Assembly (NCBI GenBank): GCA_018883345.1
Contig: VEQG01000005.1
Coordinates: 1 to 64,000, forward strand
Source: Candidatus Nanopelagicaceae bacterium
GTDB lineage: Bacteria > Actinomycetota > Actinomycetes > Nanopelagicales > Nanopelagicaceae
Direction: 5' to 3'
Length of the DNA stretch: 64,000 bases
Made by a program: the position numbers and the translations under genes. The notes below the pieces were generated by a model. That model was not told the origin of the DNA and ran no database searches. It was given only the letters and a program-made list of their open reading frames with translations. Positions 57,152-63,873 of the stretch are shown here, in pieces. How positions within the stretch are numbered: position 1 is the stretch's first letter; every line of letters starts with the position of its first letter.

Positions 57152-57847
57152 TTATCCCTTCTTAAAGAGTTTTGGCCAAATACTAAGTGGCACCAAGCGT
57201 GCTAACTTCATTGTGATTGCCATTGGTAGCGGGAAGATGATTTCGATCTTTCGCTTTTCAATGCCTTTGACGATTGTCTTAGCGGCTTGCTCTGCGCTGA
57301 TGATGAAAGGCATTTTAAATTCATTGACATCTGTCATTGGCGTTTTCACAAAACCAGGAGAAACTGTTTGGATTAAAACTTTGCTACCAACTAAATCAGT
57401 TCTGATGGATTCTAGGAAATTTAATTGCCCTGCCTTGCTTGGTCCGTAACCACTAGAACCAGGCATTCCTCTAAATCCGGCAACCGAAGAGACACCGACA
57501 AATGTTCCGGAATTCTTCGCAATCATTTTTGGCAATACCGCGGCAACACATCTTGCTAAACCGACCATGTTGGTGTTGTTATGTTGTTTGAAAACATCTA
57601 AATCAAATTTCTGTACTGACATACGTTGCCAGAAACCGGCCATTACTAAAACTAAATCAAATTCTCCATACTTTTCTTGATATTCACTTGCGGCTTTTTC
57701 AACTGAATGATCGTCTGCAATATCAATTAGTAAATCGCCTTTGCTGCGAGATGATCTAATCACTTGCCAACCTTTGCTTTGCAATTCGTCAGCTACTGCT
57801 GCGCCAATTCCAGATGAAGCTCCGATAATCCAAGCTTTGCGGTTCAT
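57152..57847 (-). CDS. short-chain dehydrogenase/reductase
   Basis: A 231-aa SDR: cofactor loop GASSGIGAA, VSSVAGFRG with the catalytic Ser, and YGPSKAG with the Tyr-Lys pair. A hydrophobic C-terminal stretch (FPLPMAITMKLARLVPL) may associate with membrane. It overlaps the CFA-synthase-like gene by 4 nt, so a lipid or fatty-acyl substrate is likely but unproven. Confidence 0.88.
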   Translation of the reverse strand: MNRKAWIIGASSGIGAAVADELQSKGWQVIRSSRSKGDLLIDIADDHSVEKAASEYQEKYGEFDLVLVMAGFWQRMSVQKFDLDVFKQHNNTNMVGLARCVAAVLPKMIAKNSGTFVGVSSVAGFRGMPGSSGYGPSKAGQLNFLESIRTDLVGSKVLIQTVSPGFVKTPMTDVNEFKMPFIISAEQAAKTIVKGIEKRKIEIIFPLPMAITMKLARLVPLSIWPKLFKKG

Positions 57848-59013
57848 AATTTTTCAAAACCTAACTGCCAAACATTTAGATGTCCGGCGCGGAAGCCTGC
57901 TTCAGAGTAAGCCAGGTAGTACTGCCACATTCTTTCGAACTCTTCATCAAAGCCCAACTCTTTAACTTTTAAGCGGTTTTCCATGAATTTATCGCGCCAC
58001 AGTTTTAATGTGTATGCATAATCCATTCCCATTGGGCGTTGGTCTACTAACTTCATCTGGCCTTTTGTAAATTGATCAATAACTTCGCGTGAAGGAATGA
58101 TTCCGCCTGGGAATATGTACTTATGTATCCAGGTATATGCATGTTTTGAAGCTAATAAGCGATCGTGTGGCATGGTGATTGCCTGTAGTCCAAAACGACC
58201 ACCTCTCTTTAAATGATTACTAATGGCATCAAAATAGGTTGGCCAATACTTCTCTCCAACCGCTTCAATCATTTCAACGCTAACTACGGCGTCGTATTCA
58301 CCTTCTAAGTCACGGTAATCTCTAATTTCTACCGTTACCAAATTGCTTAATCCAGCTTTAGCAATTCTTTTATCTGCAAGTGCTTTCTGTTCTTTTGAAA
58401 GGGTAATGGAATGTACTTTGGCGCCGCGATAAGCCGCTTGCATCGCTAACTGTCCCCAGCCGGTTCCGATTTCTAAAATATGCATACCGGCTTTTACGCC
58501 CGCAAAATCTAAAATTCCTTCGATCTTTCGAATTTGTGCTTTTGCAAAATTATTCCAATTTGGATTCTCACCGGCAAAGTTTGCAGATGAATACATCATG
58601 GTTTCATCTAAGAATAATTGGAATAGATCATTTGATAAATCATAATGTCTTGAAATATTCGACTTTGAACCTTCTAAATTATTCTCTTCATTTTTTGGTT
58701 GGAACGGTTCAAATAATTTTCGGAATTTGCGCATCCAACCCGGCACAATATGTAATAACTTTTCGGCATACGGTGTTAAAACTTCAGCTAGGTCTGGCTT
58801 AGCAGTCCATTCATTAGCCATAAACGATTCGCCTAAGCCAATCTTTAAATCATTTCCTAAACGATTATAAAAATTCTCATCATTTATTGTCATAACCGGC
58901 AAATTAGGCTTATTTGGCCCCATGATTTCGCCATTTGGCAAAACCACTTTTACATCTACTAGTGGTGCGATTCTGCGATGTAATTGTTTAGCAACTGCCG
59001 CTCGAATATTCAT
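57844..59013 (-). CDS. cyclopropane-fatty-acyl-phospholipid synthase family methyltransferase
   Basis: A 389-aa SAM-dependent lipid methyltransferase. The N-terminal acyl-substrate domain precedes NISRHYDLSNDLFQLFLD, a family hallmark. The SAM site is ILEIGTGWGQLAMQAA, and VVSVEMIEAVGEKYW holds the catalytic acidic residue. It may make cyclopropane, 10-methyl or methylene fatty acids; the branch cannot be fixed by eye. It overlaps DUF1365 by 4 nt. Confidence 0.9.
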   Translation of the reverse strand: MNIRAAVAKQLHRRIAPLVDVKVVLPNGEIMGPNKPNLPVMTINDENFYNRLGNDLKIGLGESFMANEWTAKPDLAEVLTPYAEKLLHIVPGWMRKFRKLFEPFQPKNEENNLEGSKSNISRHYDLSNDLFQLFLDETMMYSSANFAGENPNWNNFAKAQIRKIEGILDFAGVKAGMHILEIGTGWGQLAMQAAYRGAKVHSITLSKEQKALADKRIAKAGLSNLVTVEIRDYRDLEGEYDAVVSVEMIEAVGEKYWPTYFDAISNHLKRGGRFGLQAITMPHDRLLASKHAYTWIHKYIFPGGIIPSREVIDQFTKGQMKLVDQRPMGMDYAYTLKLWRDKFMENRLKVKELGFDEEFERMWQYYLAYSEAGFRAGHLNVWQLGFEKL

Positions 59014-59708
59014 AGCATGCCACTCTGCTTAGGATGAGCTGGCCTTGGAACTACCGGAAGCCTGCGTAGCCATAACCAAATTCCGTGTGCGCGAATTCTG
59101 GCCATAGCTTGTAACGTCGAAAACGGCGTACGTAAATAAGCCACGAATCGATTCTTAATGCTTGCCTCCATCTGCTCTCCGGTGAAGCTGGCGCTGAAAA
59201 CCTGAGTACCATTTTGATATAAATTTACGGATAGCACAACGTCGCGGTCATTAAAGAATGTCCTAGTCCGATATTCGCCGTCGATTGTAAAAAATGGCGA
59301 TACATAGAATTCTTTATCAATCTGGCTATTACCTTTTTCATCGGGGTGAAGTAGATGTGCATGGCGATCGCCATAAGTATTGTGTATTTCCAAAATCGCC
59401 CACCGAACCTGACCATCACTTTTTAGGCACCAATAAACTGAGAGTGGATTGAATACATATCCATTGGTGCGCGCGCTGGCAATTGCAAATAATTTATCGC
59501 TTGAATCGACTAATTCTCCACGGCTCTCTGCAAAATAAGTTACGGCTTCACGCATCGACTTAGCTTCTCCACCAAAATGATCTTTGGGAAGCAACTTCTT
59601 TTGCGGCTCATCTAAATCAACTAACCACATGTAATTAATAAATTTCAATCCATGTTTAAGTGGGGTTCTTCTTTGATGAAGCACCTTACCTTTGACCAAC
59701 TTCACCAT
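59010..59708 (-). CDS. DUF1365 domain protein
   Basis: A 232-aa protein. KGKVLHQRRTPLKHGLKFINYMWLVDLD (given in part), the NPLSVYWCL core and NTYGDRHAHLL are DUF1365 hallmarks. The biochemical role is unknown. The family consistently accompanies CFA-synthase-like and COG2907-type FAD genes, which is also seen here. It overlaps both neighbours. Confidence 0.9.
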   Translation of the reverse strand: MVKLVKGKVLHQRRTPLKHGLKFINYMWLVDLDEPQKKLLPKDHFGGEAKSMREAVTYFAESRGELVDSSDKLFAIASARTNGYVFNPLSVYWCLKSDGQVRWAILEIHNTYGDRHAHLLHPDEKGNSQIDKEFYVSPFFTIDGEYRTRTFFNDRDVVLSVNLYQNGTQVFSASFTGEQMEASIKNRFVAYLRTPFSTLQAMARIRAHGIWLWLRRLPVVPRPAHPKQSGML

Positions 59709-60922
59709 ATTGCGCCAAATTTTCGAGCCGCTGCTACGCCAGATCTTGCACCATCTTCATGGAAACCCCATCCAAGGTGTGCACCGGCAAATGCAAGGCG
59801 TGGGCCACCAGCGTTTCTTAAGAATGCTGCGGCGTTAACTGCTTTAACGGTAAAAACTGGGTGTTCGTAATGCATAGTTGCAATTACTTTTTCTTCCGTT
59901 ATTTCACCGTTTAGCGTTACCACATAATCAGAATTTGCCTTTAGATTCATAAGTAAATTCATCCAATAACTAACCAGGACTTGGCCCGATTCTTTCCGGC
60001 AATCTTGCATCTTGTAATTCCAAGATGCGCGGGCTTTGGTCGATTTGGGGAGTACTGATGCATCTTTATGTAGAACTGTTTTATTTCTTGAATATGTAAT
60101 GTCAGCCAGATTTGCTCGCTCTTCAGAAGTGACATCTTTTAATATCTCTAAGGCGCTATCTGCATGAGTTGCAATGATTACTCGATCAAATCGAGCCCCG
60201 TTTACTTCAACATAATCTTCATATCTAATTACTGATGTAACTTTCTCTTTTCTGGCATCTGGAATTAATTTAACTATTGCTTCAACATAAGTATTCGAGC
60301 CACCGACTACCGTCTTCCAAATGGGAGAATTACCTAGCTCTAACATTCCATGATGATTTAAGAATTCAAATAAATGTTTTGCTGGGTATTGCAAAGAGTC
60401 TCCATCACCTGAAGACCAAACACATGAAACTACTGGAATTGCATAATGTTTGATGAAGTAATTGCTAAATTTATTTTCTGATAAAAATTGGCCCCAAGTT
60501 ACCGAACTATCTAAATCTTCCTTGAGCAATTTTCGTGCTTGCTTATAGAAACGTGGTACATCAAATAACATCTTTACAAATCTTGGATCAAGTAATTTTA
60601 TTGGTTTTGCCAAAATACCTTTTGCTCCGCGACCACCAACATATTGCAGCCCGCAACCTGCACAATCGATACTCATTGTCATTTCCGTGACTTGAGTTGG
60701 AATGTTTAATTCGCTAAAAATACGAATTAAATTTGGATAAGTTCGCTCGTTATGAACAATAAAACCCGAATCGATACGCTGTGAATCTACTGAATGCGTA
60801 TGTGCATGTCCGCCAAACCTATTATCGCTTTCAAATAGCGTTACCTCGTGTGTTTCGCGCAATAAGTAAGCGGCGGTTAAGCCAGATACGCCTGATCCAA
60901 CGATGGCTACCGACTCTTTCAT
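59702..60922 (-). CDS. FAD-dependent oxidoreductase (COG2907-like, amine-oxidase fold)
   Basis: A 406-aa flavoprotein starting ESVAIVGSGVSGLTAAYLL (FAD Rossmann), with DSGFIVHNERTYPNL and a C-terminal LAFAGAHLGWGFHEDGARSG FAD contact. It probably oxidises or desaturates an acyl chain together with the methyltransferase. ATG 60922 is chosen over the in-frame ATG at 61105, because the extra 61 residues are the antisense of the SRPBCC gene and a -10 lies seven bases before 60922. Confidence 0.88.
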   Translation of the reverse strand: MKESVAIVGSGVSGLTAAYLLRETHEVTLFESDNRFGGHAHTHSVDSQRIDSGFIVHNERTYPNLIRIFSELNIPTQVTEMTMSIDCAGCGLQYVGGRGAKGILAKPIKLLDPRFVKMLFDVPRFYKQARKLLKEDLDSSVTWGQFLSENKFSNYFIKHYAIPVVSCVWSSGDGDSLQYPAKHLFEFLNHHGMLELGNSPIWKTVVGGSNTYVEAIVKLIPDARKEKVTSVIRYEDYVEVNGARFDRVIIATHADSALEILKDVTSEERANLADITYSRNKTVLHKDASVLPKSTKARASWNYKMQDCRKESGQVLVSYWMNLLMNLKANSDYVVTLNGEITEEKVIATMHYEHPVFTVKAVNAAAFLRNAGGPRLAFAGAHLGWGFHEDGARSGVAAARKFGAIW

Positions 60923-60929
60923 AGGCGCG

Positions 60930-60946
60930 AATTTACAAGATATATT
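60930..60946. promoter_or_regulatory. paired divergent -10 elements for the FAD oxidoreductase and SRPBCC genes
   Basis: On the minus strand TAAATT (60935-60930) ends seven bases before ATG 60922. On the plus strand TATATT (60941-60946) ends seven bases before GTG 60954. The whole divergent region is only 31 bases. Confidence 0.5.
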
Positions 60947-60953
60947 GGGGCTT

Positions 60954-61382
60954 GTGAGCCAAATCGTTTTAACCAAGGTACTTGATAGCAATAAAAGCGC
61001 GGCTGAACTCTTTTCATATTTCAGCGACTTCACTACTACAAACGAGTGGGATCCCAATACGGTTAAGACCGCAAAAATAAGCGGCGATGGTGGAATTGGC
61101 ACCAAGTACTCGAATGTCTCTGCATTTAATGGCAGAGAGAGCTCGCTGGTTTACGAAGTAATTGAATATCAACCAAACCACTTAATTAGACTTCGGGGTG
61201 AAAATAAATCCTTGGTGGCAATCGACACCATGATGATTGAAGAAGTAAATGGAGTTCGTCGATTTACATACGAAGCCAAGTTCACCTTTAAAGGAATTGC
61301 CAAAATTGCTGCACCTTTCTTAACGAAAGCCTTTGCAAAACTCGCGGCTGATGCTGAGGCTGGCTTGCGAAAGGTTCTTTAA
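60954..61382 (+). CDS. SRPBCC (START-like) family protein
   Basis: A 142-aa protein with the helix-grip pattern of lipid-binding or polyketide-cyclase folds (LTKVLDSNKSAAELFSYFSD; NEWDPNT; IEYQPNHLIRLRG; a long C-terminal helix AKAFAKLAADAEAGLRKVL). GTG 60954 gives the usual N-terminus. The ATG at 60903 would add 17 unconserved residues overlapping the divergent gene. A small hydrophobic ligand, perhaps from the neighbouring lipid operon, is possible. Confidence 0.8.
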   Translation: MSQIVLTKVLDSNKSAAELFSYFSDFTTTNEWDPNTVKTAKISGDGGIGTKYSNVSAFNGRESSLVYEVIEYQPNHLIRLRGENKSLVAIDTMMIEEVNGVRRFTYEAKFTFKGIAKIAAPFLTKAFAKLAADAEAGLRKVL

Positions 61383-62835: not shown

Positions 62836-62952
62836 AGCTCTCCTTGTGTAGTTACTACACAAGGTCTCCGCCGCCGAATCTTTCGGCCTGAACACCGGTT
62901 GCAACTTTCGCAACGTATTGACGATGTCTCAGCAGTTGGGGTACTCCCCTTG
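62836..62952 (-). promoter_or_regulatory. yybP-ykoY (Mn2+) riboswitch upstream of terC
   Basis: Reading the minus strand, the aptamer begins CAAGGGGAGTA (62952-62942), the conserved GGGGAGUA box. It ends GGAGACCTTG (to 62860), the conserved GAGACC side. CAAGG/CCTTG closes P1. Internal hairpins GCCGAA-AGA-TTCGGC and GTTGC/GCAAC lie between. The platform is a perfect 10-bp hairpin, CCTTGTGTAG/CTACACAAGG (62842-62864), whose 3' arm contains the terC ribosome site AAGG(AG). P1 and this hairpin compete for the same CCTTG. The layout predicts translation ON when Mn2+ stabilises P1, as for E. coli alx. Confidence 0.82.
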
Positions 62953-62994
62953 ATGGACCATATTCTGCACAATCCAAGGGCAGAAATCAAAATC

Positions 62995-63015
62995 ACCGCG
63001 CACGCCTTGCGCGGT
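62995..63015 (+). other. 8-bp stem-loop in the terC-heliorhodopsin intergenic region
   Basis: ACCGCGCA (62995-63002) and TGCGCGGT (63008-63015) form a perfect stem around CGCCT. It lies upstream of the predicted heliorhodopsin promoter and is followed only by TTTGG, so it could be a weak terminator or a DNA-level operator. Confidence 0.4.
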
Positions 63016-63090: not shown

Positions 63091-63873
63091 ATGGCTTCAA
63101 GGCAATTACTCGAAATCGGAAGTGAACGTCAGGCTTCCTTGAAACGCTACAACTTAATTGCCGGCCTATTTCACGCGGTTCAGGCAATTGCAATCTTGGC
63201 GCTTTCAAATGGTTTCTCTCTGCCGGTACATATTAATTACCTGCAAGGCCCGCCAATTCCTGGCACTGAGTTTGAACAAGTACCGGTTTTCGACTTTCCG
63301 GTAGCGCTCGGGGTTGCTTCCTTTTCAATTCTTAGCGCAATCGCGCATTTTTACGTAAGTGGACCTGGATACACAAAATATATCGACGGTTTAAGAAATA
63401 AGCGTAATTATTTCCGTTGGCTTGAGTATTCAATCTCATCGACAGTAATGATTATTTTGATCTCTCTACTAAATGCAGTTTGGGACATCATCGCGTTAAT
63501 TGCGATTGCGGGTGTAAATATCTCAATGATTCTCTTTGGATGGTTGCAGGAGAAATATGAAGAGCCTGGCACCGGATCGCTACTTCCATTCTGGTTTGGT
63601 TGTATTGCTGGCGCGTTTCCATGGATTGCCATGTTCTGGTTATTGGTATCCCCTGGTAGCTCCTCAGATGCAACTGCCCCTGCCTTTGTTTATGGCATCG
63701 TAATTTCATTATTTGCACTCTTTAATTGCTTTGCAATTGTGCAATGGCTGCAATACAAACAGATTGGAAAATGGGCCGATTATTTAGCGGGAGAGAAGAC
63801 TTACATCACTCTTTCGTTTGTAGCTAAATCTTTGCTTGCTTGGCAAATCTTTGGTGGAACTCTTATTTCGTGA
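63091..63873 (+). CDS. heliorhodopsin
   Basis: A 260-aa, seven-helix retinal protein with inverted membrane orientation compared with type 1 rhodopsins. Hallmarks: RYNLIAGLFHAVQAIAILAL (in helix A, with H28), RWLEYSISSTVM (E112, the Schiff-base counterion), NISMILFGWLQEKYEEPG, LLPFWFGCIAG and LSFVAKSLLAW (K246, retinal lysine). By memory these align with heliorhodopsin 48C12 (E107, K241). The family does not pump protons. Signalling, enzyme regulation or stress roles are proposed. It ends in a GTGA overlap with the next gene. Confidence 0.97.
   Translation: MASRQLLEIGSERQASLKRYNLIAGLFHAVQAIAILALSNGFSLPVHINYLQGPPIPGTEFEQVPVFDFPVALGVASFSILSAIAHFYVSGPGYTKYIDGLRNKRNYFRWLEYSISSTVMIILISLLNAVWDIIALIAIAGVNISMILFGWLQEKYEEPGTGSLLPFWFGCIAGAFPWIAMFWLLVSPGSSSDATAPAFVYGIVISLFALFNCFAIVQWLQYKQIGKWADYLAGEKTYITLSFVAKSLLAWQIFGGTLIS

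Follow-up and report, generated by a model that had tools for sequence, protein, structure and literature searches.

In several phyla, yybP-ykoY riboswitches are known to precede genes of the TerC family, whose members TerC and Alx have been linked to Mn2+ export or metalation. The 64,000-nucleotide stretch analyzed here (the window; contig VEQG01000005.1 of a Candidatus Nanopelagicaceae bacterium) contains a terC gene with a structured leader, which raises the question of whether this leader lets a streamlined, freshwater-type actinobacterium adjust TerC synthesis to Mn2+. We believe that it is very probably a Mn2+-ON translational riboswitch of the alx/terC subtype of the yybP-ykoY class, an assignment drawn from sequence comparison in which Mn2+ binding and the ON direction are the parts that we infer.

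First, the leader has the architecture of the class (Table 1). The motif GGGGAGUA and the (G)AGACC box lie between P1 and P1.2, an internal loop with CGUCA and an invariant adenosine separates P3.1 from P3.2, and terC follows directly downstream of the aptamer, which thus occupies its 5' UTR. A first-pass annotation had pointed to the two boxes GGGGAGTA and GAGACC, to the P1 pairing CAAGG/CCUUG and to a perfect 10-bp alternative hairpin that reuses the CCUUG of P1; all of these are present on the minus strand, and the hairpin is part of the minimum-energy fold. That annotation had overlooked the L3 box with its CCGG, the P3 and P4 helices, P1.2, which contains one C.C mismatch or bulge, and weak -35 and -10 elements.

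Table 1. Features assigned to the terC leader and its surroundings (positions in the window; functional labels are predictions)
Feature	Position	Strand	Basis or remark
Heliorhodopsin gene, divergent from terC	63091-63873	plus	PF18761, E 9e-92
Candidate -35 TTGATT	62985-62990	minus	sequence reading; weak, under the 9-of-12 promoter-scan threshold
Candidate -10 CAGAAT	62962-62967	minus	sequence reading; start expected near 62954-62957
Riboswitch element	from C62952 (P1 5' strand), ending one base ahead of the terC start codon (A62835)	minus	sequence reading
P1 5' strand CAAGG	62948-62952	minus	sequence, R1 match, covariation; copy of SD-side sequence
L1 box GGGGAGTA	62949-62942	minus	sequence reading
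L1 5' side GGAGUA, invariant box	62942-62947	minus	100% conserved in relatives picked without the pattern
P1.2 5' strand CCCC	62938-62941	minus	R1 match
P3.1 5' strand CUGA-G-ACA, one bulged G	62925-62932	minus	fold and R1 match
L3 5' side UCGUCAAUACG	62914-62924	minus	R1 match, conservation in relatives
P3.2 hairpin	62898-62914	minus	fold and R1 match
L3 3' side CCGG, invariant	62895-62898	minus	conservation in relatives
P3.1 3' strand UGU-UCAG	62888-62894	minus	fold and R1 match
P4 hairpin GCCGAA-AGA-UUCGGC	62873-62887	minus	fold and R1 match
P1.2 3' strand GGCG, C62870 mismatched or bulged	62869-62872	minus	sequence and R1 match
Box GAGACC	62868-62863	minus	sequence reading
L1 3' side GAGA	62865-62868	minus	conservation in relatives
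P1 3' strand CCUUG, switch strand common to the SD-masking hairpin	62860-62864	minus	
SD-masking hairpin CCUUGUGUAG-UAA-CUACACAAGG, 10 bp perfect, loop UAA	62842-62864	minus	sequence and fold
Shine-Dalgarno (SD) AAGGAG	62840-62845	minus	sequence reading
terC, controlled gene, 306 aa	61915-62835	minus	PF03741, E 3e-55

Second, comparative analysis ties this architecture to a family of actinobacterial leaders. A search of actinobacterial genomes for the pattern GGGGAGTA followed by TCGTCA recovered about 40 leaders in which CCGG and AGACC are present as well; since the pattern by itself was unspecific and gave many chance matches in coding sequence, a covariance model (R1) was used instead. R1 was built from an alignment of 36 of these leaders (A1), in which P1, P1.2, P3.1, P3.2 and P4 were assigned, and the window as well as alx and mntP of E. 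coli were left out of its construction. Searched with R1, whose E-values are rough, the window gave the leader as its sole match (65.3 bits, E 4.5e-15), and in the whole genome this was the only place at E<1. R1 also matched E. coli alx over its full length (E 6.7e-12) and, more weakly, E. coli mntP (E 5.7e-5), so that a model made without the window or alx relates the leader to a Mn-responsive member of the class. In A1, 22 of the 25 pairs show two-sided changes, and the covariation score of 0.511 compares with 0.240 for shuffled and at most 0.172 for slid alignments; P1.2, for example, appears in relatives as CCCC/GGGG, UUCC/GGAA, CUCC/GGAG and CCUA/UAGG. A second alignment of 72 leaders including the window and alx (A2), in which 91.3% of cells pair, scored higher (0.670 vs 0.221 shuffled), but A2 was made from the best-scoring R1 matches and fitted to the structure, and A1 is therefore the cleaner test. 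In addition, the residues of GGGGAGUA, CGnCA, CCGG and AGACC are 97-100% conserved in 70 R1 matches that were picked by the model rather than by the pattern and exclude the window and alx, and the invariant L1 and L3 residues are all found in both of these. The proposed class assignment is thus supported by covariation and by homology to Mn-responsive alx, and that of terC as the target gene by the presence of a TerC homolog directly downstream of 97 of the 103 distinct aptamers examined.

Third, the leader retains the predicted metal site. It shares its L1/L3 metal-site residues with the crystallized yybP-ykoY riboswitch of L. lactis, which has the L3 form UCGUCAAUUCG...CCGG and differs in possessing P2, and hence a four-way junction, and in acting by transcription termination. 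In the L. lactis structure, from which the nucleotides of the Mn2+ site (M_B) were taken, the N7 of A41 coordinates Mn2+ (PMC9190785); the matching position in the window is A62919 in L3. The three-way junction form predicted here has been described for Streptococcus (PMC9495176). Among the closest known counterparts is E. coli alx, likewise a TerC-family gene, with which the leader has in common the L1 boxes, an L3 of the form UCGUCAnUACG...CCGG, P1, P1.2, P3 and P4. The window leader differs from alx in its far shorter P4, in the sequence that separates P1 from the SD, and in its direct strand swap, in which P1 and the SD hairpin take part. The mntP leader, for which translational ON control has been reported (PMC9603457), shares the L1 boxes, P1, P1.2 and P4 but has the L3 form GUCAACAUACU...GUGGC and another target gene. 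Reporters of both alx and mntP respond to Mn2+ (PMC9603457). It could be argued that the leader folds like an aptamer of this class yet responds to a different signal, be it pH or another divalent ion, for instance Ca2+, given that the alx reporter is also turned on by alkaline pH alone (PMC9603457), that a member of the class from Streptococcus has a higher affinity for Ca2+ than for Mn2+ (PMC9495176) and that the L3 position matching U44 is an A in the window, as it is in alx. However, the Mn2+-site residues G, U39, C40, A41 and C45 are kept in the window, U44 touches the metal via its phosphate only (PMC9190785), and the target belongs to a Mn2+-linked family, and we therefore consider a different signal unlikely.

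A search with the Rfam model RF00080 had been set beforehand as the test of the Mn2+ riboswitch reading, and it gave no match to the leader, either at the gathering cut-off of 45 bits or in a focused scan at E<=10, nor one anywhere in the genome; among 150 actinobacterial relatives, none exceeded the cut-off. The positive controls failed likewise: in the same search E. coli alx gave no match at E<=0.5, and mntP, at 41.6 bits, fell short of the cut-off. The Rfam 15 model lacks P1, leaves a long 3' portion unpaired and carries an mntP-type L3, which is why it misses alx/terC leaders. As the positive controls were also missed, the missing match is no evidence against the Mn2+ riboswitch reading. 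The other Rfam families gave chance-level matches to unrelated families, far under cut-off, in the window leader, and no Rfam family gave a usable match in the window and its relatives. With an older Rfam model, the terC (cg2157) leader of Corynebacterium glutamicum, also seen in RNA-seq, was assigned to RF00080 at 49.13 bits (PMC3890552); this actinobacterial terC leader resembles ours, although cg2157 is a prediction for which that paper gives no switch mechanism. Two actinobacterial leaders, L032 and L033 (other copies in G073 and G092), carry an mntP-type L3 (GCGUCGACAUGCU) and score 32 bits with RF00080, so that both L3 forms coexist in the phylum.

Fourth, the pairing alternatives around the SD suggest how the aptamer would be coupled to translation. 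The leader folds more stably than its shuffles (z = -4.0), with the SD-masking hairpin, which taken alone amounts to -12.9 kcal/mol, in the free-energy minimum. The hairpin had been proposed to hide AAGGAG; this holds for AAGG (62845-62842), which is paired, but not for all six bases. P1 and this hairpin are mutually exclusive. Forcing P1 leaves most of the SD unpaired; without this constraint, the four leading SD bases are all paired. The P1 5' strand effectively duplicates the SD: in the window, the P1 5', P1 3' and SD-side strands read CAAGG, CCUUG and CAAGG. A helix of at least 6 bp between the SD arm and the P1 3' strand occurs in 65 of 98 leaders, compared with 12.6% of shuffles, and of the 63 leaders compared at the fourth switch-strand position, 35 have G/C/G and 22 have A/T/A across the P1 5', P1 3' and SD strands; this three-way co-variation supports the switching logic that had been read from the window by itself.

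In the Mn2+-ON reading that we favor, transcription would begin at the 5' end of the aptamer, which would then fold into a three-way junction of P1.2, P3 and P4, lacking P2, with L1 and L3 docking around Mn2+. Docking would keep P1 formed and CCUUG engaged, leaving the SD free, so that terC translation would be on at high Mn2+; without Mn2+, CCUUG would pair with the SD-side copy of CAAGG instead, and the resulting 10-bp hairpin would block ribosome binding. By secondary-structure energy, the masked (OFF) state is favored by 14.1 kcal/mol in the window; across the family the median preference is 8.9 kcal/mol. Mn2+ alone would thus hardly flip the switch at equilibrium, and folding order or tertiary energy would be needed. 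For this reason we infer that Mn2+ acts during RNA synthesis: the aptamer would be complete before the SD arm emerges, and bound Mn2+ would hold P1. This preference for the OFF state, a hairpin that covers four of the six SD bases, the C.C mismatch or bulge in P1.2 and the missing RF00080 match are the points that speak against the Mn2+-ON reading.

A genuine aptamer could also act by transcription attenuation or mRNA decay, the hairpin then being a stabilizer or a Rho-related element. Some class members do work by transcription (PMC11087558), and the SD-side hairpin is absent in some Nanopelagicales relatives of the CCUUGGC type. Yet the hairpin ends in the SD and has no U tail, a scan for intrinsic terminators found none between the aptamer and terC, and SD-arm pairing is kept across many genera in which the SD lies 4-14 nt before the start codon, all of which makes such control improbable next to a translational switch. 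That the stretch is merely an N-terminal coding extension of terC with RNA features arising by chance is scarcely credible: no stop codon interrupts the terC frame as far up as a TTG at 62913, but the strong covariation, the conservation pattern with non-coding variation in length, and the start of relatives at the same MNVS-like position after the SD refute it.

The predicted start of the transcript is consistent with this layout. Among 95 relatives, 41 have TANNNT at 12-14 nt upstream of the 8-nt stretch of the P1 strand (about 1.3 expected per position), and CAGAAT in the window has a 12-nt spacing and lies 17 nt from TTGATT. With a candidate -10 element just upstream, the transcript is expected to begin only a few bases from the aptamer 5' end, and the leader should be about 120 nt long. 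A palindrome that resembles a terminator, ACCGCGCAAGGCGTGCGCGGT, with a tail rich in T (62995-63015, minus strand), separates the terC promoter from the divergent heliorhodopsin gene and, as read here, lies upstream of the promoter and outside the terC transcript. The first-pass annotation had also mentioned the heliorhodopsin neighbor. A heliorhodopsin gene is present in 90 of the 151 genomes of the window's family but not beside the riboswitch elsewhere; in relatives with both, some 19-40 kb or more separate the two, or they are on different contigs, and we reject a link. Elsewhere in the window, a cluster at 57844-61105 encodes an FAD amine-oxidase-like protein, a methyltransferase of the cyclopropane fatty-acid synthase family and an uncharacterized protein; the opposite strand carries a polyketide-cyclase-like gene.

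Finally, the distribution of R1 matches extends the subtype well beyond this genome. At E<=0.001 the model found matches in 203 of 297 Actinomycetia genomes, about two thirds, and in 38 of 149 genomes of a phylum-wide sample; in the window's own family, 36 of 151 genomes had one at E<=0.01. At least two TerC genes are present in 34 of these 36 genomes, compared with 30 of the 115 family genomes that lack the switch, and the window's genome (a bin 85% complete with 6% contamination) has a second TerC, without a switch, on contig 34. The switch thus marks an extra TerC copy. R1 matches L144, L163 and L166 precede non-TerC genes, for proteins starting MASFSRLIDLASKALD or MDKISRLLGMASQALD and a small PGPGL-type membrane protein; these genes may also belong to a Mn2+ regulon. 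Six terC leaders of the Nanopelagicales family (L026, L027, L055, L057, L060 and L077) combine a weak SD (AUAGGU) with a P1 3' strand that reads CCUUGGC. In the best fold of four of the five that were folded (L026, L057, L060 and L077), the aptamer 5'-end GUUAAGGGG pairs with CCCCUU(U)AAC just before the SD, which looks like a second, different expression platform.

Taken more broadly, and as a tentative proposal that we hold to be possible rather than probable, actinobacterial terC leaders may form a large, mostly unannotated Mn2+ riboswitch subtype in which the P1 5' strand is an SD copy and the 3' strand is traded co-transcriptionally between decoy and real SD by strand exchange, with a second platform in some Nanopelagicales. 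The literature examined, which covers the field in part, yielded no paper on the class across Actinomycetia or on the SD-copy platform. Leaders of the alx/terC subtype, that of E. coli alx among them, escape the current Rfam Mn2+ riboswitch model, and so, in consequence, do most actinobacterial members. The SD-copy design offers a simple translational switch that is open to test, and Mn2+ control of TerC is probably far commoner in Actinomycetia than annotations show.
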